Shown: positions 3,580-51,790 of the stretch, in pieces
How the letters are laid out: the number at the start of each line of letters is the position of its first letter
Position numbering within the stretch: the stretch's first letter is position 1
Assembly: GCA_950295325.1 (NCBI GenBank)
Contig: OX485809.1
Location: 12,896,001-12,960,000, forward strand
Direction: 5' to 3'
DNA length: 64,000 bases
Source of the DNA: Polytrichum commune
Lineage: Eukaryota; Streptophyta; Polytrichopsida; Polytrichales; Polytrichaceae
Notes under the pieces: model-generated
What the model saw: only the letters and a program-made list of their open reading frames with translations
What the model was told of the DNA's origin: nothing
Databases searched by the model: none
Translations under genes and position numbers: made by a program

Positions 3580-3965
3580 ACGATGAGTATGAGATGCTTA
3601 GCAAATCCAAATCAAAGCCACTTTCCTCATGATTCTCAACAATAAATAAATAAATAGTTCAATTTCAAAGTGAGGATTCTCGTACTTTGGTTTCCTTTGC
3701 AATTGATTTTCTCAATTTGTGCCAAAAAAAAGAAAAAAAAGTGAAGATTCTCACGCTCATTAAGTGGTTGTATAGGTCCCCTCCAATTTATGTTGACTTC
3801 TGAGTCTAGATCGATTATCGTATTTTGGGCACGTAGTCCAATTTGTGTTTAACACATGTATTTTTTGGTGTGCATTCCTGAAGCCACACTAACCACGTGC
3901 CACTCAACTACATGTGTCCAGTTTAAATAAGTAACCAAACTAGGCACATGTATCTTAACTTCCAT
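3580..3965 (+). repeat. Rep1 dispersed repeat, forward copy
   Basis: Representative forward copy of the commonest family in the window. Landmarks in order: GCAAATCCAAATC, CTCATTAAGTGG (variant of CTCATTGAATGG), a C-run then TTTATGTTGACT, TAGTCCAATTTG, CCACTCAA, and ATAAGTAACC with GGCACATGTAT. Similar forward copies, complete or partial: about 370-455, 4670-4755, 12750-12860, 13525-13585, 16020-16330, 16780-17130, 19000-19300, 19420-19640 and 59400-59600. No coding capacity. Confidence 0.75.
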
Positions 3966-13600: not shown

Positions 13601-16600
13601 AGGATCCAAGACCAACTAAACTATGGATTTGAGTGATCCTATAAGTTAAGAATAAAAATATGGGCCCAAGTAGTTTACACCATGATATGAGTCCAAGGTA
13701 AGAAAAAAATGGATTGTAATTAAATGTGGTAACACTTTCCTGCCAAATTTCAGTGGTCCCACTCAAGAAAGCACTCACCCTAGTTTGAGAAAGCAACTTT
13801 AAGCTTGGGTCCGATATTCACTCTAAAAGTAAGGATCATAAAAAGATGTTTTGAATCCCGAGTTTCTTGGATCCGAACACCACTATAAACCCATCCTCAT
13901 GACATCTCCAATGCCGCCATCACATTTCCCTCCAATTCCTACTCCAAAGCCGCAATAAATGAGCTTGTGTAGTTATAGTTAATATTTTGCTATCACTCAA
14001 ATCTTACCCAATGAAAACAACCATGGTATTAGGTGTCAAGGATTAATGTCACATTGGATTAAGGTTTTTAATAACCATCTATGTCTTTCATATCTTCTTA
14101 AGTAGGTTAAGTTCACACTTTTGTAGTTCATTGGTGCTCTTTGTGTCATGTGTGGGTTTGTCCTATATGTGGACTCCTATCACTCTAATTTCATCCACAA
14201 TGTCCATTGTGAAGCTCAAGAGTTTTGCAAACAGTGTTGTATTTTCCCTTTTGGGTGCAATAGTATGGTGACCCCCTTTCTAGGCCCAAGTAACCTTTTA
14301 ATATTTCATGTGGCGTTCCTTAATTAACTCATTTTTAGTTGTAAATTACCATTTTTTTATTACGAATTGCCGTGAATGGAAGCAAACTATACTTAGTTTC
14401 AACTTACATGTCTCGATTTTAGTCTCACAAATACTATAACTAGCACTTTAATATGTGGGCATAGTCTGGCAAATCAACCATGTAGTCATCACAATAACAT
14501 ATGTAGTATCGTATATACAATCAATTCCTTCCTTAGGAATATGCAAATGTAAAACATTCAATATAGCCGAGCAACAAGGTCAAGCTACTCTTACTTTGCT
14601 CTACCATTAATCTCACCCACCCCTCTAGTATGTTACATTGTGGTACAAGATGGTTCAAACTTTGTACTATTGATAATAATCTCTCCAATTGCTTTTGTCT
14701 TTCTCTAGGTTGTAGACAAACTCTATTGGTTGTGTTAGCTCGACTTAATCACTATCCAATTGTGAGACTAGTGTCTAATCCTTACCAAACTTCTCTCTAT
14801 AATTGCTACCAAAGCAACAAAGATAACTTTTCTCCACTTACAAATCAACATGACTACACTCTAGCCAAGTCTTGTTTTACTTATTGCATGCAACTTAACC
14901 CAAGTGAACTCCATAGCCATCTAAAAAACACCACGCAAGGACTATATCCAATATGTTATGAAACATTCAATTGTTCCTTAACTGTTAGTCATGATTTGTC
15001 CTAACCCTTTTCAAACATTTCATTTTTTCTATTCAGTTAGTGGCCATAATGCCCACTAACTTCAATGATTATAGTCGGAAGATACATATTCATCATTGTT
15101 TTCTCCATTTTAACACAACATCAAATTCATTGGACATCATATTGTTATCAACTCAACTCCTTCTTTTGCATAAACATTATCATGATACAAACTCGCATCT
15201 TGAAATTGTAGTTGATTTCCTCAATTTGGGAAATAACAACCATGTTATAACTTATTGTACTTATTGTCTTTTCCTATAAAGGCATTGCTCGCCTATAGCC
15301 TACACTCTCATCTTAAGAATTTGTAGCTATATACTTCCTATCATCTATGTCCTTCTTGCGCTCAACCTATCGCATGCGTTACTCATGCTAACTATCATAT
15401 GATTAGTTTATCCTAAAATGGTTTGTCCTCTTCCTCATGGGAACTTCCCTTATATCTTCGGCCTTTGATACAACCGCATGTGGACTGAAACTGTTGACAC
15501 TACTTCACATTGCCTATAGTCTACCATTCACATTGCTTTTAGATTCTACCCTTACTTTATGCATCAAAATTCAATAATCTACTTCCTATAGCTAGTGTGA
15601 ACATGCTATAGCCAATCAATTCTTACTACATTAATACTACTTGAAGAGGATTGAAGACTATAGCGGCGAAGGCACCACTACTACTACACTAATTGTTATT
15701 CTATATGTAATATTCTAATCCCAAGATGTGTAAGGCAATAGTGGGCAAATGTTAATACAAATAAAATAATTGTATAAAGTTCAATATATAAAGTGCAATG
15801 TTATGAAGAGAGCATTTTTGGTTGAGAGAGGTTTGACTCTATCGCTACAACAAATAGAGTATCCTATTCATTTTGGTGCCTCTAAATTTACATTAACTAG
15901 TGGAGAGGGAGATGCGGTGATGATCGTTATGCCTCTACTCCCTCTACCTCAAGGTATGTGGTGTTGATTTGTTAATTTTCATTCTCCATCTTCATATTGA
16001 CATACCACATAACTTAAGTGGCATTAACAAATCTACAATACACCGTCAACAAAATCCATACTGTTAAATTGGACCTTCATTTGTTAATTATGGTTATCAA
16101 ATGTTCATGTGTCATGATTCTTTGACTAACTACCTAGGTCCCTTGAAATGTGTTCATCATCGAGTCTAGAGTGGTTAATAAAATTCAAAGATGTGCTCCA
16201 AATCCTTTTTAATTAGCATGTGTCTTTATGTTGTGTCCACTCTTCGATCCATGCTTAGTCACACATCACTTTAATATAAGTGTCCTTTAAGGCACATGGG
16301 CCTGATTCAATTATATACCTTAATTGGACACCTATATACGAGTGTGTACTTGGTTAGGTTAGATCCAAGAATAGAACTCAACAAGACACGTGGTTAAAGA
16401 TATTGATCTATGTGTTCAAAATTTATCAACCATTATGGACTCAATGGTCAACACAATTTAGAGAACCCATGCATTCAATCAAAGCACGAATCAAAGAATC
16501 AGCACCCATGCACTTCCAATAATCTTAATTAAATAAAGGGAGGTCTGACTTTTGTTGATATTTCATCATACATTTGCTAACGCCACACAAGTTTCCTTGC

Positions 16601-18250
16601 ATAAAATTGATCAGTAGAAGTTGGAAAACATGAAAACATAACATAATAACACTCACGTACCTAAAATTAGGTTTGCATACCTTAGTCTAGAGTGCCCCTC
16701 ATTATGCTTGAGTGCAAATAAATCATTGAGTTTCAAATAGTGAGGACTCAACCCACTCTAAGTGGGATGGGTTTTAAATGGTTACATTTTCCAACTAGTC
16801 CATTTCTCCTAGGATACAAAGTATATGATTAGTACGAGATGGACCTTAGCAAATCCAAATGAAGATTGTAACCACTTTCTGCACAATTTTGAGAACTTTA
16901 TTGAAAATCTTTTTCATTATCAAAATGGTATTTTGTATGTTCATCAAATTGTCACCCCCCAATCGTGTATTAATCCTAGAATGGTTAACATGTTTTGAGC
17001 ACATAGTCCGGTGTATTTTGAACACATATCTTACCAGTGTTTGTGCTTAGATTAACACCTAATCACATACCACTCAAATATAGTGTGCGATTAAGATAAG
17101 TAACCGAATTAGGCATGTCTATCCCAACAAAATACTACATACGTAGGGCTCTACCCATTAGATGAAACGATGGTTGGTTGAAAGTTGTTGTCTTGTAGTG
17201 TGTTGTATAAAAGAAAAATGTGTATGTTAAAATAAAAGTTGTTATCTTGTAGTTGAACAATTGAATTTTAGTTCATGCTCCAAAATATATACATCAAAAT
17301 TCTTTAATGCGAATCTCTGAGCAAGATGCTCATTGTGTCAAACAACATATGATCGCAACAACATAAAATGAGCAAAAGCTTGCAGCAACTATGGTCCATG
17401 TAGGATTTTGGTATTCTTTTCATATCAGGATATGCTCAATCAATAATAGCTCAACACCAAGGGCCGCTTCACACTATGGCCATCCAAGCCGAGAGGCCGT
17501 GGGATTGAGTGGCCAAACTTTGTTGAGAGTCCAAAGAAATGAGCTGAAAATAGTCAATAAAATATAATAAGTGGAGCCTTTGGTTGGGTATAAGATAAGG
17601 TCGACAAACTCGCGACAACGCAACCTACCCCGCATCACATCAAAATTTGTAAAATGTCAGAGCGTATGTGACTGAACAATCGAGTCGTCCACAAACCGTA
17701 GCTTTTTAAAGTAAAATCTGGGCTCCGAAAGCTAAAGATGATCCACTAAGAAATGCATGACTGGCGACTTCTAATGAATTGAAGGTATTATGATGCACTG
17801 TTGATTTGGAAATGCATCGATGTAATGAAACACATCAACATGAAGTTGATCCTAGAGGTGTGTAGTAGTTTTTCAATTCTCCAACATTTTCGTAGGTGTT
17901 TAAAAACCTCTTCTTGTCTACAGCTCTCCTCATGCCTTATCATAAGAGTGGGAGTTAATTAGATTCCAAACAACTCTATCTAGTTCATTACATGAATTTA
18001 TAGTTATCTCACGGTAAATTATTTTCATCAACATTAGTTTCCACATTCATCCAATACATTTGTTCACAATCAAACTTATGGGTGAGAAAGAAAAGCAAAT
18101 TTAGAGCTTTGCTCTAGGTAGACGTGTGTTGTTTGGGTACTTCTCTCTTTGCACCCACTTCTCGTAGGATATGGATATGCAAATACACTCCTCCCTTTTT
18201 GATACGACACTCAATAATGATAATTTTTTTGTAAACCGAACTTTCAAGTT
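10700..18250. other. Intergenic, element-rich, no gene recognised
   Basis: Contains Rep1 copies (listed with the representative copy) and a segment at about 11096-11185 that is the inverse of 54523-54600. Open frames reach only about 124 codons (14630-15004) without domains. Several AT-rich stretches (12.9-13.2, 15.0-15.3 kb) show nothing identifiable. Confidence 0.5.
11096..11185 (-). repeat. Dispersed repeat, inverse of 54523-54600
   Basis: TTCACCACAAAATTTGGGTG and GACCACCAAAC here match, on the other strand, GTTTGGTGGTCACCC and AAATTTTGTGGTGAGAGAAC at 54523. Flanks also correspond (GACAACCTG / CAGGTTGTC type). Probably two copies of one MITE family; ends not resolved. Confidence 0.6.
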
Positions 18251-18254
18251 AAAT

Positions 18255-18994
18255 CTACCTCTATAATACAACTATGTCATTGTTAATACGACACTCCCCC
18301 AAAGTGTCACATTATAGAGGTAATAAATGCATGCATGATGGGTCCCACACAAGTACAAGTACATAATTAATATTGAATATATGTAAATTTCACATATGAA
18401 ATGTGTCTTGATGTAAAATGATGCTAAAACACAAGAACTAAGGGAACTATGTTCTCTATCTCAAACCCTGATCAAGAGACTCATTAGCTTTTGTCTCTTT
18501 CACACGAATTTTTCACCTAAATCCTAAACCAAGGTGCATAATTTATTTTTTAGCATATTGAACTCAATATTTAACATATTTCTTTGATTTGCATATTGTT
18601 AGAAAGCTCTTGAAATTTCACTTCTTTTGGTGGTAGTTTGTCCCATTTTGAGTTGTATTGGCAAAGCTATGAGCATTGGAAGGCATGTTACGTTTTTGCA
18701 CTTGATTTTTAGACAACAATATACTTTTGCATATTCTAAGGTGGCAACATCAACAAACTATTGATTATTTCTTTAAGTCCACATAGATTTCATGAGAGAA
18801 ATTTGCATATTTGTAAAGGCATGTGAAAGAATGTTCACTTTGTATAAGTGGCAAAATATCCATTGTGTGTTTTCATAGAGTACATTGTTATTATGACAAA
18901 GAGGTCCAATTTTTCATATTATTGCGTATGTGACACCTGGATAATACGACAATTTTCTCGTTTCCCAAATGTGTCATATATATTAAAGAGGTAG
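18255..18994. mobile_element. TIR element of about 740 bp (hAT/Mutator-like MITE)
   Basis: Left end CTACCTCTATAATAC, then TAATACGACAC and CCAAAGTGTCACATT. The right end is the inverse: TAATACGACAATTTTC, CCCAAATGTGTCATAT, TTAAAGAGGTAG (18994). Long imperfect TIRs of the CCTCTxTAATA...GACACxTTGGG type are known from plant DNA transposons. Non-coding interior; no clear target duplication. Confidence 0.5.
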
Positions 18995-19420
18995 GATTGT
19001 AGTACAAGACAATACGCAAATCCAAATCATGCATGTAGCCATTTGTCTCATAAAGTTCATAGCTCATATGAATATCTTATCCATTACCAAATGAAATATT
19101 CTCATGCTCATTGAATGGTCATATAGATCCCCCACTCATGTTGACTATTGAGCCTAGAATAGTTAGCGTGTTTTGAACACAAAGCCCAATTGTTTTTAAC
19201 ATGTGACTTTTTTATGTATGTTCCTAGAATCAACCTAACCATGTACCACTCAAGTATAGGTGACTACATTATACCCATGTTTGACTTAGGCACATCTAAG
19301 GTATGTGGGTGTTATTCGGATTGTTTTAAATGTTCTCCAACTTCAATTGATTCAATGAAACTTGTGTTGCATTTGCAAATGTACAAACAAGAGCAAAATA
19401 TGAATTGCAAATCAAATATC

Positions 19421-20399: not shown

Positions 20400-20997
20400 C
20401 TTCCCTTTACCTTAGGAGCCCACAAAGCGAGCACCAGTGGCCAAGAGCCGAGTCGCGTGGCTCTCTCCTCAGGACACACAGCCTGTCGTCGTCGTCGCCG
20501 TCGTCGCCTTCTCATTGCGCCATTTTGCCATCATCATCATCATCCCATCCGCCTTGTCTGCCTGCCTGGCCTAGCCTAGCGTGGCGTGGATGTCATGTAC
20601 CCGTCACCTCCCGTCATCTCCGCTCTCCTCATTCCTAACCATCGCTAACTAAGTCTGTCTCTCGTGCTCGGGAAACAAACGACGAGTCCACTCTTCCCTG
20701 CGTCTTGCCCTTAAACTTAAGCCTCCTCCTCGTCGTGGTTGCCTGCACGAACCTCCCTCCTCGCGGTGCAACAGAAGTCAGCGGTGAAACACTCCGCCAT
20801 CGTTTTATCGAGAGCCTACTACTTGGAATCAATACTTAAACAAGTGGATGCACACGAGGGCGCAATGAGCCTGCTGTTGTAAGGGCGTATAAGAAGGAGA
20901 AGGACGAGTGGGAAAGAGGATCAACAAGGATGTGAGGGAGGGGGGGAGCATTAGGGTTTGGGCTGCCGGGGTAAACGACGGAGGAGGAGCATTAGGC
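20400..20997 (+). promoter_or_regulatory. Putative promoter-proximal region / 5' leader of the VAL gene
   Basis: Composition changes abruptly here from AT-rich repeat DNA to GC- and CpG-rich sequence. A polypyrimidine run (repeated CTTCC, about 20388-20410) follows an AT-rich CATATAAC at about 20364-20371 that could act as a TATA element. CGT and CAT trinucleotide runs lie at about 20485-20545. Upstream ATGs occur (for example near 20594), so uORFs are possible. Transcription start and any leader intron cannot be fixed from sequence alone. Confidence 0.45.
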
Positions 20998-23900
20998 ATG
21001 GCCGTAGAGAGCGCGGGTGGCAGCGGCCGGAAGGTGTGTTGGAACACCAAGTGCGGGGCGACTAGCTCCCCGACGTGGCGGCCTGGCTGGATTGTGCGTT
21101 CCGGGCGCACGGCTGAGCTTTGTGATCAGTGCGGGTGAGTGAGTGATTGGTTAGTTGGTTCATTGATTGATTGGAGGAGGAGTTGTTGTTCTTGCTATCA
21201 TTTTTGCATGTTTCTGGATGTGTTTGGATGTTAAGTGCTCGGCTAGGGCATTTACGAGGGCACTAAGGAACAGAGAATAAGGAAGAGCACTTCGAAGTTG
21301 CATGCATGGGATCTCGCATGTAGTATCCATTAGTATTAATATTAGTAGTAGTAGTATTAGTATTAGTAGTAGGAGGAGAAGTAGTACTCTTTGCGGCATT
21401 AGGTTTTAGTGATCATTGGTAAAATAAGTAGTATGTAGTGTGGCATGCATGGGAGCTAAATCAGGCAGTTCTTGATGTTGCTATAGTATTTGGATGTATT
21501 CGGATGTGTTTAGATGTTAAGTGCATGGTTAGGGCATGTTCGAGAGTACTAAGGAATACGGAATAAGGAAGAGTACTTCGAAGTGGCATGCATGAGATGA
21601 AATCCGCCGCATGTTGTTGTTGTTGTTGTTGTAGTAGTAGTAGTAGTAGTAGTAGGAGGAGGAGTACTGTTTCTGGCATTAGGTTCTAGTGATCAGCGGT
21701 CAAAAGAGTAGTTGTGTAGTGTTTTCATGCATACATGGGAGCTGAATCAGACAGGGGAGTGTGAGTTGTGTTGGTTGCAGAGTTGCGTACCAGCAGTCCC
21801 GCTATTGTGAGACGTTTCACAGAGAGGATGGAGGGTGGAGAAATTGTAATTCGTGTAAAAAGGTTAGTGCTTCTGTCACCTTGTAAATTGTCTTTGTCAC
21901 GAAATGCGTGGTTCTGAAATGTACCTTGACGTCGGGGACCTGTTCACGTTGTTGTGACTTGTAAAGTTGCACCGAAAGAGGTGCTGATTACGAAATCAGC
22001 GGAAGTGACGTGGACTGGTAAATTGATGGTCCAGGATGATGTTGTAGTGGACGGACATGGCGTTTGGACTGCACTTTTTTTCGTCCATGTGTTCTGTTGC
22101 TGGGGAGAAGTAGACTCACGCAAATTGAACATGAATACACTAAATTAGTGTATGATTTGCTATGTATTACATAATGTGATGGAATCAGAGCATTGATATA
22201 TTGGACCCTTTTTAAAAGTCTACATCAGCTAATGGGAGTTTCCCTGTTCATGAGAAGTGTTTAGTGGTAGCAAAATTGGACGCTCAGATCAAGCAGTATG
22301 CTTGTGCTTTTTGTTTACAAAATTTTAATGAAGTGAGTTTGGCGGCGGGAGGCGCAGGGTGTACACTGTGGGTGTGTAGCATCCGTTTATGAGTTTGTAC
22401 TACTGGACAAGGGTGGAGTGGAGTGCATCAGATGTGCACAAGCACATGACACTGGCGCGGTTCCCCTGGTATGAGATGTGCGCAGTTTGTTGAGTGGGTC
22501 TTGCCTGTGTTTGTGATGAGTGTCTTTATATCAGCTAGCTTTGTTGAGATTTTCTTATCAAATGTTCAGAAGGAGAAACTGAGCAGTTGCTCGTGTTGTG
22601 CATTTATTACATATACAGCTATACAGAGACTAGGTGTTGTTTGCTATTGCAACAGCAATGCCACTTAAATGCCTTCTTTATCAACTAATGTATGGGGTTA
22701 CCTTTTCCTCAGTGAAGGAAATCCATGTAGTTCATATTCTTATGGGTCTGGAAACACCATGAATTGCATGCATGGTGCAGGTTAGTAAACATGGACAGCA
22801 ACTCCTGGCGCCAGCTGGAATGGATAGTGCAAAAGTGGTAGACCCAGCTGGTAGAGGCTGGTGTGAGTATGGTGCTGCATTGGCTGGTTGTCAGGCGGAT
22901 ACTGGACAATGGCAGCCCTCATCTGCGGGACGAGTTCCGATGAGCTCCCCCAGTGGACTACCTGGGACTTGGCAGTCTCCCCAGGGAAGTGAGCAGCCAG
23001 TTAAGGTCAGGGATGCTGGAGAGCAGAGTGTTTATGAGGCACCGGATCGTGTTGTTGAGGTGGTAGACATGGAGAGAAGCGCTGCTTTAGATAGGATAAA
23101 ATTGGTTGGAATGGGAGCAAGTGGTGGTGGGAGTCCTCAGTCAGGAGGGCATATGGAAAATGCTCCGCAGTCTCCTGGTAAGTCAGGTGCAGAGACATCT
23201 ACAGGGATAAACCTGTCAAGAGGATCCAGTCCTCTAGGTTTTGATGGGGGTCCCAGGGGGGGACCTGAGGTTCCAGCAGGGGACACAGGGGAAGGCAAAT
23301 CAGGTGGTCAACATCGTCCACCTCGTATTCGGCAGTTGTTGCCCCGTCCACATGGCAGTTCAGGTGCACCACCACCTTTTGAGCCAGCCTTTGATCCTCA
23401 GGCACCATTGCGGGTTGCACGCCCACCAGGGGAGGGCAGAGGCCGCAACCAGTTACTCCCTCGATATTGGCCACGAATTACAGATCAAGAGCTCAAGCAG
23501 ATAACTTCTGGAGAGTATCCTTCTGTTGATTTTGTGCTGGTTTTATTACACCCTGTTCATGTAGCACTGAAGAATTTTTATCAGTTTGAAACTCGGTCAA
23601 CTACTTGAGGCAGCAATGCTTATCTAACATGTGTTGGTTTGGCATGAGTTGCTCCCATCTCAAGTTGTAGTCCTACTAGCCTGAAGTGTGTTGCCCTTGA
23701 CAAGATTTTGGCAGCATGCACACTGTAATTACTCCGTTGTTTGAGAAGATGCTTAGTGCCAGTGATGCTGGCCGGATCGGTCGGCTGGTACTTCCAAAGG
23801 CTTGTGCTGAGGTACGTATGGGTTTTATTCACCTCTCTTAAGTTTTAATTGCAAAATATCAAAGCACATCCCTGGAAGTGGTAAGATGTCCCAACATTAT

Positions 23901-26900
23901 CAAGTAGATGACCAGTTTTCAGTGCTGTTACTTTTCCAGTCTCAGTAGTTATTGAACGTCATATCTGAGATTTTAAGATTCTCCCCTGAAAATCAACAGA
24001 AGCTAATACCAATAGCTGCAAAGTGTTGTGATTTATGTGTATCCATGATATGAATTGAGCAACCTATTCACGAAAGAAAGGCAATTGTCAATTTGCGCCT
24101 GCTCTTGGTAAATGGAATTCTGGAATTGGAGGTGATTGCAGGCATATTTCCCACCAATACACCAGCCGGAAGGATTACCTCTGAGAATCCAGGATGTCAC
24201 AGGAAGAGATTGGGTGTTCCAGTTCCGGTTTTGGCCCAATAACAACAGCCGGATGTATGTTCTGGAGGGTGTTACACCATGCATCCAATCTATGAGGCTC
24301 CATGCAGGTGATACAGGTATTTGCTCCATCGCCTCTCAACCATGTACCAGTTAGTCGCCGAATCTCAAAGTTGCAGTCTGCTGATAATTGGTCTTCTTGC
24401 AGTCACCTTCAGCAGGCTGGAAGCTGATGGAAAGCTGGTCATGGGATATCGGAGGGCCCCAAGTTCTCTTTCTTCTCAGGTGTGTACTGGTCAAAGTCTT
24501 CTGACTGGTAATATCAGATCACTTTCCATTTGAAAAAGAAAGTGATAAATAAAAATGTGCAAGATCCTAGTATGCAGCTGGTTTTATTTATAATTTACTG
24601 GTGCTTGGTGGGTCATGCAAGAGATGATATTGATAGTGCAGTTTCCCAGAAATGTCAGGCTCTTGAAGGGTTTCAGGTTGGGTTAGTGTAACTAAGTTTG
24701 TGTCTACTCACAGTGAGGCTGGATTATAGAGTCTATCCCCATTGCAGTTGTATCTTAAGTACTCTCGATTTCAAAAGAAGAAGAAGAGCCTGGAGCATGA
24801 ATACATATACCAGGGGTTTGTGGTTTTCAGGATGCTGGTGCTAGCAGGGCTGCAGCTACTGTTAACATTGGGTTACCAACTGCAAGCAGCGTGGCCAACC
24901 AGTCAGCAGATACTTGGGGTTCCAATGTTGGAGTGTCCAAATCGAAAGATAATAGCATTATAGGTCAGTTGTGGTCTTCGCAGATGGATCGCAAACGTGG
25001 GCGCCCACTTGGCTCAAAGAGCAAGCGCCTGCGGCTTGATAGTGCAGATGCTCTGCTCCTGAAGTCCAACTGGGAAGAAGTGCAAGAGCTCCTGCGGCCC
25101 TCTCCATCGGCTATTCCTACCACCATCACTATTGATGGTCACGAATTTGAAGAATATTCAGTATGTCATTTCATGAATGAACTCTTGGCTTGCTGTTTTC
25201 TCCCTCAAATATGCGAAAGGCTCACAAGTTCTCATATTAAGTGATACACACTATCAAGCATTCCCATCCTTACTTTGTCTTCCTTGTATGAGTGGCCAAA
25301 TTTCTCTCAGGTGTCACTTGAAGTTTTCTCATTGACTTGATTTCTCTTTTTGTGAAACAATCCCCTTGCAATTCACTTCATCACATTTAAATGCATAAAA
25401 TCTCATAAACAGTTACTGATGAGACTTGTATCTTTATAGGAACCTCCAGTTTTTGCTAAACGAACCTTCATGACCAGCTCTCCATCAGGGTAAGTGAGAG
25501 GGTTTTCTCCTTGTCAGGTCTAATTTAGCACGGGGTAATCTGTTTGTGAGGTGCTCTAGCAAAGCTTTCAAGGAAATGATTTACATAATTCTCATGGTTG
25601 GTACGCTGACAAGATTCATTTGCCTCTTGTAAAAACGTTTCCAACTTTTATGGTTTTCTTGCATTAGAAGTAAATGGTTATGGTCAGGTTGGGATCCGTT
25701 TTTGATGTCGTTATGGATTGCAGGGAACAGGAACAGTGGGCGCAATGCGATGATTGTGGGACCTGGCGCCGACTACCAAACGATGCTTTTGTGCCTGCAA
25801 AATGGTCGTGCTCCCAAAATACCTGGGACCCAATGAGGTAAATTTGGCTATGGTCCCTTTTTGTCTGCTTCAATGTACTCGGACCCATAATCACATGGTT
25901 GCCAAATGCTTGCATAAGGGAGCCTGGGCCTGTTCTAGCTACTTTACTGATGAGAGTACTGAGGACTTGGCTTCAGTTTGTTATACTGTTGTCAACCTAC
26001 ATGTCAAGGAGATTAGAAGAAAAATATTTCTTATGGAGTAGAATAGGGCAGCATGGTGGATGCCCTGGTGGTGTGATGGAGAGCAGTCAGTTGTTGAGTT
26101 GGTTTATTTTCTATGTGGGGAACTTGATCGTCATAAGCAAGTTTATCACATTGGGCAGGTCATTAAAATGGACCAGTTGTGGTGTGATGTCAAAGGAATT
26201 TTTATTTTTCTTAGTAGATGTGTTACTAGCTTGTAAGTTCTAGCATTATTAAGTGGCCATACTGCTTGATCATGCGCTCCAGCTGGGCATAAAGTTACTG
26301 GTTGTGTTTCACAAAGTGGTTAGTCTGTACTGGGGTGAAGAGACTAGGGGTCCTGTTACCCACTTTGGTAGTATTTCTGTTCGCTGCAACAATGTGTCAG
26401 TGGGTACATTGCAGAGCACAGTGCAGCGCACCTCAAGAAGTGAGCATTGACAAACTTGAAGTACTACTGGGTCCTGTGCACACTCAAGGCAAGTCTTGGA
26501 CCCAGAAATAGTCTTTCATCCTGTTCAGTATATGTGTACAGAGGGCTCTGCTGTGCAAAGTGGGGTGAGGTTAGGTTGTGGATGGAGGGTGACAGAGCCT
26601 GGGTGGTGGGGTGGCTGACATGATGCAGAGGGTGGGAAGCAGGAATGTGCACCCAAGACACTTGTCAACCCTAGAGAGGAAAAGGTCCCAACCACATCAG
26701 CTGCGGCAGGCTTGGACACTTTAGCACAGGCAGCATCAACAACTTTGAGTCCAGTACGGACAACAAAGCACCCCAGGCATCGGCCAGGATGCAGCTGCAT
26801 AGTTTGTATTCAACCTCCAAGTGGAAAGGGACCTAAACACAAAGCTTCATGCATCTGCAATGTTTGCGTGACAGTGAAGCGCCGTTTCAGGACATTAATG

Positions 26901-27851
26901 CAGCGCCGCAAGAAGCGGCAATTTGAACGGGAATCTGAAATGGCCCGGAATAAGCGGGAATGGCCTCGTGATGATGTCCCTGATCTTTTGGCTCTAGATG
27001 CTACTGCTCGACCTGAGATTGTAGGGGGGATCAAGTCTGTGGAACCTTCTACGCCATTGGTGCACACTAGGGAGGGGGGGTTAGAGGAAGGTCCTACAAA
27101 GGCACCGATTGACCTTAATATTCAGCCAGAGCATGAGGAACGAATTAGTATGATGCGTCTCCTTCAGAACGCCACCTTGCCTCTTGATGCCTATCTGCAT
27201 CAGCAGCGTCTGGCCTCTCTCTATTTTGGTGATCTGGCCTCGGATCAAATCAGCAATGATGGGTCCAGTAGCCATGAGGAGGAGGTGGTATCTGAAAGTT
27301 CCAGCAAGGCTCTTGCAGAAAGTGGGGTGGAGGTGGCTGGTCCGGCTCGGTTGGAACCCCAACATGTTCAGAGTCCGTATGGTTACGGAGAGCAACCTGG
27401 CCAGTTGGAGAACTGGGACCTAAGGATAGTCAAACCTGCAGAGTTTTCAGGGGACTCAGTACATTCAAGCTCATCAAAAAAAGACTACAGCATGCTGAAT
27501 AATGTTGTTGCCTCTACCTTATCTGCAAAGAAGTATTCCACTGGAGCAGGTCGAGGTCGCCAAATTTGTGTTGGATGTGGTGAACCTATTGGTTCTGCAG
27601 CTAAGGTAATTATCCTCTGTTTCAAGTAAACCTACTTTCTAAATTGCAGAGTCATGTGGGTTCCTTGTGAAGTTGTCTGGTTATTCATGTGACAGTGTGT
27701 CAGTTACAATGCTTTGCATGTCAATTCTAGGGAGGATTGAAGTGGGAATGGATTGATATTGATGCAGTCTGGCTTTCTATGTCTCCAGGTTTGCAGAAGA
27801 TGTGGCACCTGCACTGCCTTTGGCAAGAAGAAGCGGGGTGTGCCTCTTTAG
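20998..27851 (+). CDS. VAL: VAL/HSI2-type B3 transcriptional repressor (PHD-like, B3, CW, EAR), 13 coding exons
   Basis: Nuclear repressor of the VIVIPAROUS1/ABI3-LIKE family. Known members bind RY elements through B3 and silence seed-maturation genes via Polycomb and HDAC partners. Exons read by hand: 20998-21134, 21781-21862, 22358-22468, 22781-23514, 23715-23811, 24142-24316, 24403-24479, 24831-25160, 25440-25489, 25724-25837, 26415-about 26475, 26643-27605, 27789-27851. All introns are GT-AG and phases join in frame, giving about 997 residues, a little longer than typical family members (roughly 800-900). The ATG at 20998 was chosen because it immediately precedes the conserved Cys-rich domain ([15 protein letters not shown]); the upstream in-frame opening has only a GTG. 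The least certain junction is the exon 11 donor: 26475 keeps frame, but 26469/26629 is an alternative pair. No frameshift or in-frame stop was seen. The gene is almost certainly functional. Orthology to VAL1, VAL2 or VAL3 is unresolved. Confidence 0.95.
21184..21756 (+). repeat. Tandem duplication of about 286 bp in VAL intron 1
   Basis: Two units, about 21184-21469 and 21470-21756, share colinear landmarks offset by 286 bp: TTAAGTGC (21231/21517), the segment around AATAAGGAAGAG, CATGCATG (21301/21587) and GGGAGCT (21451/21737). Each unit also contains a trinucleotide microsatellite, mainly TAG/TTG type, at the same relative place but with different repeat numbers. Together they fill nearly all of the 646-bp first intron. 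Confidence 0.9.
21301..21732 (+). promoter_or_regulatory. Cluster of four RY motifs (CATGCAT[G]) in VAL intron 1
   Basis: CATGCATG at 21301-21308, 21444-21451 and 21587-21594, and CATGCAT at 21726-21732. A fifth CATGCATG lies at 22767-22774 near the intron 3 acceptor. RY (CATGCA) is the established target of VAL/ABI3/FUS3/LEC2-class B3 domains. The motifs are seen directly; function is inferred. Confidence 0.55.
22781..23514 (+). other. VAL exon 4: variable linker ending in conserved [12 protein letters not shown]
   Basis: 244 codons of low-complexity Gly/Pro/Ser/Gln-rich sequence (residues about 111-354), followed by the conserved pre-B3 motif [19 protein letters not shown] (about 23443-23499). 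The linker is poorly conserved in the family while the end motif is diagnostic. The open frame runs past 23514 to a stop at 23606, but the donor at 23515 (GA|GTATCC) restores the conserved ...SGD junction with exon 5. An ATG at 22772 lies in the intron just before the acceptor and is not the real start. Confidence 0.9.
23715..24479 (+). other. B3 DNA-binding domain, exons 5-7
   Basis: Residues about 360-465. Exon 5: [26 protein letters not shown]. Exon 6: [19 protein letters not shown], then [34 protein letters not shown]. Exon 7: [19 protein letters not shown]. These are near-invariant VAL-class B3 blocks, including the segments R.GRLVLPK and [11 protein letters not shown] that contact RY DNA. 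All core residues are present, so RY (CATGCA) binding is expected. Introns: 23812-24141 and 24317-24402, the latter only 86 bp. Confidence 0.97.
24831..25160 (+). other. VAL exon 8: basic RGRP segment and conserved post-B3 block
   Basis: 110 codons (residues about 472-581), phase 0 at both ends. The middle carries [19 protein letters not shown] (about 24987-25043): an RGRP core flanked by basic residues like an AT-hook, which is also a likely nuclear localisation signal. It is followed by [14 protein letters not shown] and [12 protein letters not shown], a block seen in family members just before the CW domain. The family normally has a basic SKSKRL stretch here; the clean RGRP core is my observation and its DNA binding is inference. 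Confidence 0.88.
25440..26475 (+). other. CW-type zinc finger, exons 9-11
   Basis: Exon 9 reads [17 protein letters not shown], exon 10 starts [18 protein letters not shown] and continues [13 protein letters not shown], and exon 11 reads [19 protein letters not shown]. The four zinc ligands C606, C609, C627 and C639 and the signature tryptophans W603, W612 and W625 are all present (numbering on the reconstructed protein). CW domains of this class are linked to methylated H3K4/H3K27 recognition. The exon 11 donor is the weakest call in the gene; GP|GTGCAC at 26476 keeps phase with exon 12. Confidence 0.9.
26643..27605 (+). other. VAL exon 12: Cys-rich block, basic region and EAR motif
   Basis: 321 codons. 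Family-diagnostic [27 protein letters not shown] and [17 protein letters not shown] lie at about 26760-26902, followed by a Lys/Arg-rich, probably alpha-helical stretch ([11 protein letters not shown]). PIDLNIQPE at about 27105-27131 is a DLNxxP-type EAR repression motif, the route by which HSI2/VAL proteins recruit SAP18/HDAC or TOPLESS-type corepressors. It is followed by the conserved [20 protein letters not shown]. The last third is Ser/Gly-rich and not recognised. The exon ends [18 protein letters not shown] before GTAATT. Confidence 0.92.
27546..27851 (+). other. C-terminal mini zinc finger of the VAL protein (end of exon 12 plus exon 13)
   Basis: Exon 12 ends with [15 protein letters not shown] strong acceptor (CTCCAG at 27783-27788) opens exon 13, which adds [20 protein letters not shown] and a stop at 27849-27851. 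The join gives C-x2-C-x10-C-x2-C with a fifth Cys three residues on, then a basic tail, resembling a zinc-ribbon knuckle pair. I do not recall this at the C-terminus of Arabidopsis or rice VAL proteins. An unspliced read-through of exon 12 would end VIILCFK and leave only the first knuckle. Confidence 0.75.
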
Positions 27852-33080: not shown

Positions 33081-33083
33081 GCA

Positions 33084-33679
33084 TACTTTTCGTTGCGTTA
33101 CTAGCTATGATAGTAACTTAGGGCCGGTTCACATGGGGTCCCAAGTCCCAAGTCCCACTCATGTTAGCAAGGCCCAACGTGGAGGCAAAGCCTTCAATTT
33201 TGGAGCCTTAAGACATCATTAAAATATGGTTATTTATCATTAAAGTCGGATCTTGATTATTTTTTGTAAATTTTGTTTGCGGAACTTGTGTTGAGAATTG
33301 GCTCTAGCTTTCTGTTTAACCTAACTCTCAATACAAGTCCCAAGCCTCACCCTCAATAAGTGTTGCCATGTAGGCATCCATGTCATACATTTCGTTGCGT
33401 TACTATGATAGTAACTTAGGGCCGGTTCACATGGGATCCCAAGTCCCAAGTCCCACTCATGTTAGCAAGTCCCAACGTGGAGGCAAAGCCTTCAATTTTG
33501 GAGCCTCAAGACACCATTAAAATATGGTTATTTATCATTAAAGTCGGATCTTGATTATTTTGTGTAAATTTTGTTTGCGGGACTTGTGTTGAGAATTGGC
33601 TCTAGCGTTCTGTTCGACCTAACTCTCAATACAAGTCCCAAGCCTCACCCTCAAGAAGTGTTGCCATCCATGTCATACT
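33084..33679. repeat. Tandem duplication of about 300 bp spanning the MITE end and its flank
   Basis: The two units (about 33084-33385 and 33386-33679) are nearly identical, including the MITE left TIR at 33121 and again at about 33419, and pre-insertion flank (TTTCGTTGCGTTACT...ATGATAGTAACTTA). Because flank is included, the duplication came after insertion. Confidence 0.85.
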
Positions 33680-51060: not shown

Positions 51061-51080
51061 CACCATAGTAGTAGTAGTAG

Positions 51081-51790
51081 TAGTAGCCCCCAGGCCCCCA
51101 TAACTCCACCAAGCCCTTTTCATGCCCTTTCCATGTTCACCACTTTTGTTTATTGTTTTTTCGGCTGCCACGGGACCCAAACGGGGCTTCACTTGTTTCG
51201 CCACAATCAATTTCCCCGTGTTTCAAAGGACGTTAACATTCTTCAAGACACGCTCCTCATCTTAGGGTTGGTTCACACCATGGACCATGAAGTTGGACCA
51301 TGGAAGATGGCTTTTTCTCCATCGTAGTAACCCTAGTCCTTCTAACTTCACCAAGCTTTTTCATTCTCTTTTCCATGTTCATCATTTTTGTTTATGGTTT
51401 TTTTGGCTGCCACAGGACCCAAATGGGGCTTCACTTTCGCCACAATCAATTTTCCCATGTTTCAAAGGACGTTAACATTCTTCAAGACACGCTCCTCATC
51501 TAAGGGCCAGTCCACACCATGGACCATGAAGTTGGACCATGGAAGATGGTTTTTTCTCCATCGTAGTAGCCCCCGGGCACCCATAACTCCACCAAGCCCT
51601 TTTCATCCCCTTTCCTTGTTCACCACTTTTGTTTATTTATTTTTTGGTTGCCACATGACTTGGTTTGCCACAATCTATTTCCCCATGTTTCAAAGGACGT
51701 TAACATTCTTCAAGACACACTCGTCATCTAAGGGTTGGTTTACATCATGAACCATGAAGTCGGACCATGGAAGATGGCCTTTTTCCATGG
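51081..51790 (+). repeat. Tandem triplication with a period of about 240 bp
   Basis: Units about 51081-51324, 51325-51563 and 51564-51790. Each runs TAGTAGCCCCC or variant, ACTCCACCAAGCCCTTTTCA, TTTGTTTAT, TTTCAAAGGACGTTAACATT, CTTCAAGACAC, and ends with a MITE left terminus (TAGGGTTGGTTCACACCATG or variant). Unit 3 has lost about 15 bp. The third unit's terminus leads into the complete element at 51732. Confidence 0.85.

Follow-up and report, generated by a model that had tools for sequence, protein, structure and literature searches.

RY motifs in the tandemly duplicated first intron of a moss VAL gene: probably a neutral duplication of a common word

The VAL (VP1/ABI3-LIKE) gene considered here is found in the moss Polytrichum commune, within a 64,000-nucleotide stretch of contig OX485809.1 (GCA_950295325.1, forward-strand positions 12,896,001 to 12,960,000) that is referred to as the window and whose numbering is used throughout. 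From ATG to stop, the gene occupies 20998-27851 of the + strand (6,854 bp), as delimited by an exon model, by Pfam domains and by comparison of its B3 domain with that of VAL1 in the PDB. The exon model contains a zf_VAL1_N domain (PF25813; Pfam E 4.8e-19, a match in which a PHD-like exon near 22357 is joined through an approximate junction), a B3 domain (Pfam E 1.5e-14) and a zf-CW domain (PF07496; E 8.9e-8, 32.5 bits against a cut-off of 27.5). The B3 exons lie at 23715-24479 (+ strand) and are identified by the exon model together with PDB and Pfam matches. Their best PDB matches are the Arabidopsis VAL1 chains 6fas, 6j9a and 5yzy, with E values of about 1e-57 (top 5.5e-58), followed by FUS3 (1.1e-21) and then LEC2 (4e-18), and the moss B3 domain is thus closest to VAL1 among solved structures. 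The product also includes DLNIQP (27111-27128, + strand), which was noticed by eye in the translation and which we take to be an EAR repression motif of the DLNxxP type.

The N-terminal VAL zinc finger, B3 domain and CW domain are common to the moss gene and to Arabidopsis VAL1/HSI2 and VAL2/HSL1. With its VAL zinc finger, VAL-type B3 domain, CW zinc finger and EAR motif, the gene has the features of the VAL/HSI2 family, and on this domain content it is a member of that family. Its product is expected to bind RY elements, a well-supported prediction because the B3 domain matches the solved Arabidopsis VAL1 B3 chains; the initial annotation had likewise placed this B3 domain in the RY-binding class. 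The stretches of B3 that are nearly identical between the moss protein and VAL1 presumably include those that contact DNA. The moss translation also has C-terminal cysteine pairs (CVGCGEP and CRRCGTC), a possible difference from Arabidopsis VAL1 and VAL2. Between the CW exon and the large exon near 26640 (25837-26643), the reading frame is broken with the acceptor that was tried, perhaps because a small exon was missed or because the assembly contains an error.

Two short elements are located near the start of the gene. A telobox, TTAGGGTTT, is present on the - strand in the presumed 5' UTR (20951-20959) and is one of three such nonamers in the window; telobox motifs are linked to PRC2 recruitment. 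The ABRE-like word ACGTGGC, which is read as an element of the response to ABA, occurs in exon 1 (21073-21079, + strand) and is also one of three in the window.

Intron 1 (21135-21780, + strand) is a phase 2 intron of 646 bp with a GTGAGT donor and a GCAG acceptor, and its removal joins ...CDQCG to VAYQQ.... Most of it is occupied by a tandem duplication (21181-21754) with a period of 286 bp, so that the basic description in the initial annotation, a 286-bp tandem duplication within intron 1 of a gene for an RY-binding protein, agrees with the measured period, the exon model and the VAL domains. Tandem-repeat detection and alignment place copy 1 at 21181-21466 and copy 2 at 21467-21754 (both + strand). 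Of 277 aligned positions without gaps, 235 are identical between the copies; with gapped columns included the figure is 235 of 306, and the divergence (K2P) is 0.17. These values indicate that the duplication is not fresh. Intact 8-mers shared between the copies number 42 of 252 (17%).

Several other origins or properties of the intron were considered and rejected. The unit does not appear to be a mobile element; all 11 other matching rows in the genome hit GTA-rich microsatellite stretches within the two copies, and the unit is not multicopy, as a motif borne by a transposable element would be. An ancestral half unit of 143 bp, suggested by the 143-bp spacing of the RY sites, is not supported by self-comparison of the intron, in which lag 143 has a z score of 3.9 against 4.1 for the unrelated lag 183, and in which the longest lag-143 match is a run of 12 bases at the RY word. 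A strong RNA structure is not suggested either, since intron 1 has a folding z score of -1.37 and 3 of 20 shuffled sequences fold equally well. Two more tandem arrays are found in the window, one at 33082-33667 (298-bp unit, two copies, 94% matches) and one at 51080-51788 (239-bp unit, three copies, 82% matches). Both are devoid of CATGCA, and such duplications are therefore routine in this region.

The RY palindrome CATGCATG is found three times in intron 1 by exact word search and alignment: at 21301-21308 in copy 1, where it lies within the decamer TGCATGCATG at 21299; at 21444-21451, also in copy 1; and at 21587-21594 in copy 2, aligned with the site at 21301. A fourth palindrome is found at the 3' end of intron 3 (22767-22774), within a second TGCATGCATG at 22765. 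It ends six bases upstream of exon 4, when the PHD-like exon near 22357 is counted, as had been noted initially, and the flank of this site (22480-22800) is unmatched elsewhere in the genome. The first intron therefore holds two or more RY motifs, the arrangement that was looked for in an element resembling that of FLC. All of these positions, and that of CATGCAT at 21726, were exact in the initial annotation, and the other window positions that it listed are correct to within 2 bp.

The second site of copy 2 is a composite (21726-21737, + strand) in which CATGCAT at 21726 runs into CATACATG at 21730. The RY words had been described as lying at matching positions in both units. This is the case for 21301 and 21587, but in the copy alignment the partner of 21444 is the broken word CATACATG at 21730 and not CATGCAT, which is 282 bp from 21444, beside a small insertion and four bases before CATACATG. 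One of the two sites has thus survived in copy 2, a rate of retention that is unremarkable given 42 of 252 8-mers intact between the copies. Each copy also has a CATGCA hexamer that the other lacks, at 21205 and 21522 respectively. Duplication had been proposed to have doubled the number of sites; what is present now is three exact sites plus a part of a fourth, with the exact ones going back to two independent sites.

Further palindromes occur upstream of the gene, at 18330 and 19028. A copy of a high-copy dispersed repeat (18180-19289; at least 95 match rows, with 40 scored of 6006 candidates) precedes the VAL start codon by about 2 kb. The palindrome at 18330 is well inside this repeat, and that at 19028 is in a repeat end matched by two rows only, among the matches listed. 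The pair was accordingly rejected as an independent promoter cluster. If the upstream sites are included, the cluster comprises six palindromes in 4.4 kb, with a scan P of 0.001, or 0.009 if the duplication is counted once. The CATGCA hexamer is not in excess in the 3 kb upstream of the gene (3 against 3.4 expected). All three copies of TGCATGCATG in the window (18328, 21299 and 22765) are at the VAL locus, the first of them inside the repeat. At the empirical rate of this decamer, drawn from 7.3 Mb of one contig, the chance of finding three in 4.4 kb is 0.0002; for two in a stretch as long as the gene it is 0.003.

The significance of the cluster depends on how common the word is. The initial annotation had used a baseline of one CATGCATG per 65 kb, which is too low: the genome contains 21,947 in 408 Mb, or 1 per 18.6 kb, making the word 11 times commoner than its reversed control (1,993 in 408 Mb). 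The window contains 10 exact palindromes, against 2.2 in dinucleotide shuffles (100 shuffles, largest 6) and 3.4 expected at the genome rate, and 2% of 64-kb windows in a 2.07-Mb sample reach 10. Within the gene there are four sites, or three independent sites if the duplication is counted once, against 0.37 expected at the genome rate or 0.72 at the rate of the rest of the window. For three independent sites, the Poisson P is 0.006 (genome rate), 0.011 (empirical) or 0.037 (rest of window), and for all four it is 0.0006, 0.0017 or 0.006, respectively; the empirical rate in these comparisons is taken from the first 100 listed places, which cover the first 2.07 Mb of contig C1.

The shorter word CATGCA gives a similar picture, with 6 distinct sites in intron 1 against 0.7 expected, 3 in each tandem unit by itself against 0.3 (P 0.004) and 13 in the whole gene against 7.2 (P 0.03). 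The genome contains 78 pairs of CATGCATG at a spacing of 128-158 bp, where 37 are expected. Triples with this spacing occupy 8 forward rows in 408 Mb, which correspond to 6 loci by our count, the VAL intron among them; of the remaining five, three or more look like tandem arrays, as judged from their start positions. All of these density figures overstate the case because they were chosen after the cluster had been seen. Once the duplication is counted once, the excess of RY words at the VAL gene is mild and probably neutral.

Other loci in the genome provide a comparison. Among 19 loci, the VAL gene is the richest in exact palindromes, with four in an 8-kb piece centred on the B3 domain, and the 18 others have 0 to 3. 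Nine loci with ABI3-type B3 exons were examined, one of them (L023) a partial match resembling another (L016), and their combined 72 kb holds four exact palindromes where 3.9 would be expected. The control set, nine gene loci picked by hand from B3 and LFY search lists and not at random, holds two. Three of the four palindromes at ABI3-type loci are at L024 (C2:61518260-61526260), where they occur at 3880, 4843 and 6559, within 2.7 kb; among the 18 loci compared with VAL, L024 alone has more than one. Three other fetched clusters of CATGCATG have no B3 match in the genome B3 search list. One ABI3-type gene, L016 (C7:12809400-12817400), shares its contig with the VAL gene, from which it is separated by about 100 kb; L023, also on that contig, matches part of L016.

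The genome has at least one full VAL gene and one diverged VAL-like locus; five VAL members are reported in moss (PMC6599366). The diverged paralogue (C4:15309500-15319400, reverse strand) has a well-kept CW domain and a B3 domain that is about one-third identical and possibly degenerate. CATGCATG is absent from the 9.9-kb piece that covers this locus, in which there are four CATGCA/TGCATG hexamers. The same searches revealed an unusual RAV-like architecture in a 982-codon open frame (positions 2465-5410 of C5:6719000-6726000), with an AP2-like domain, a B3 domain and a PB1-like C-terminus of AUX/IAA type; its B3 domain was found by search, and AP2 and PB1 were recognized by eye in the translation. 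LFY-type exons are present at three loci. For an LFY-type protein the nearest PDB entry is 4bhk (328 bits, against 281 for Arabidopsis LEAFY), an entry (FLORICAULA/LEAFY HOMOLOG 1) that we take to be from Physcomitrella, and the match is in keeping with a moss genome.

The best explanation is probably a neutral tandem duplication that carried a common word. An ordinary 286-bp duplication in intron 1 would have happened to contain two CATGCATG palindromes. Both would have been copied, and one would since have been broken in copy 2, leaving a partial word alongside, adjacent to a small insertion. In vitro, VAL or ABI3 proteins should be able to bind the sites, but the sequence carries no sign of having been kept for a purpose; the absence of function at the intron sites, like the order of these changes, is something that we infer. 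The tests lean toward neutrality because CATGCATG is abundant in the genome, little excess remains when the duplication is counted once, a copy 2 site has been lost and the paralogue lacks the word. Against a neutral origin, triples of this spacing are rare, and one of them lies in a gene for an RY-binding protein. The top rank of the gene among the 19 loci, the CATGCA counts of its first intron and of the gene as a whole, and the grouping at this locus of all window copies of TGCATGCATG, one of them in the repeat, also speak against neutrality.

A possible but doubtful alternative is negative autoregulation, which had been thought plausible at the outset and which remains so by analogy with VAL1 at FLC, although the tests lean neutral. 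The VAL protein might bind its own RY sites in introns 1 and 3, recruit histone deacetylase and Polycomb, and so limit its own level, much as VAL1 silences FLC from intron 1. Were the sites functional, a loop of this kind would be the natural interpretation. The presence of zf_VAL1_N, B3, CW and the DLNxxP motif in the product, the excess of RY sites in the gene and intron, and the telobox in the presumed 5' UTR are consistent with such a loop. So are precedents at FLC, DOG1, BOP1/BOP2 and AtSDR4L. VAL1 is described as recognizing RY motifs in FLC intron 1, and changing one base of the first of these motifs blocks vernalization; VAL1 also interacts with components of the deacetylase and PRC1 machinery (PMC9492735). 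DOG1 is repressed additively through RY1, which is TGCATGCATG, and RY2, with the PHD-like domain mediating VAL dimerization (PMC7383879). VAL1-B3 also binds sequences of BOP1 and BOP2 in which the RY motifs are intronic (PMC12152480), and AtSDR4L, a corepressor gene, is among its own targets, perhaps by way of G-box and RY motifs (PMC11333834).

The likeness to these systems has limits. As in the FLC nucleation region, the moss RY motifs lie in the first intron, within a few hundred bases of the start of the gene. However, FLC is a target of VAL1, whereas moss VAL would regulate itself, and the FLC motifs are described as conserved, with one base change blocking silencing (PMC9492735), whereas those of moss VAL are candidate sites. 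The DOG1 RY1 decamer is the same as the moss decamers at 21299 and 22765, but the DOG1 sites are in a promoter and are backed by reporter assays and EMSA (PMC7383879), whereas the moss sites are intronic candidates. The VAL-like paralogue with no CATGCATG in 9.9 kb, and the breakage of one of two duplicated sites, also argue against autoregulation. Among the matches listed for VAL1 with autoregulation or feedback, titles and abstract openings do not mention VAL autoregulation, and neither "autoregul" nor "feedback" occurs in the full text of PMC11333834. It is unlikely that moss VAL silences or buffers itself via a duplicated RY array placed like the FLC nucleation region.

Control by activators had also been proposed. 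Proteins of the ABI3 type, acting in the response to ABA and desiccation, could bind the intronic RY words and raise VAL expression. The genome has ABI3-type B3 exons at nine loci; the ABRE-like word in exon 1 is 228 bp before the first intronic palindrome. However, the ABI3-type loci show no excess of RY sites of their own, with 4 in 72 kb and 3 of these confined to a single locus, and the gene contains no G-box CACGTG, the nearest being at 16387 and 27913, so this reading is quite improbable. The LEC2 part of the proposal is not supported, since LEC2 and FUS3 are known as seed-plant genes and the genome is that of a moss. It is highly improbable that the RY words belong to an intronic enhancer or splicing element unrelated to B3 proteins, with the duplication altering intron length or splicing efficiency: the site at 22767 does end six bases before an exon, and first introns often affect expression, but strong RNA structure is lacking in intron 1 (z -1.37).

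As the evidence stands, the locus illustrates that motif counts need the genome's own word rate, with duplications and repeats counted once. If moss VAL did regulate itself, a VAL repressor would stand in direct feedback with its own gene, and the loop could be tested in moss through an intron that is easy to mutate. Intragenic, RY-directed nucleation of Polycomb would then predate the flowering plants, and in this moss it would have been strengthened by tandem duplication.
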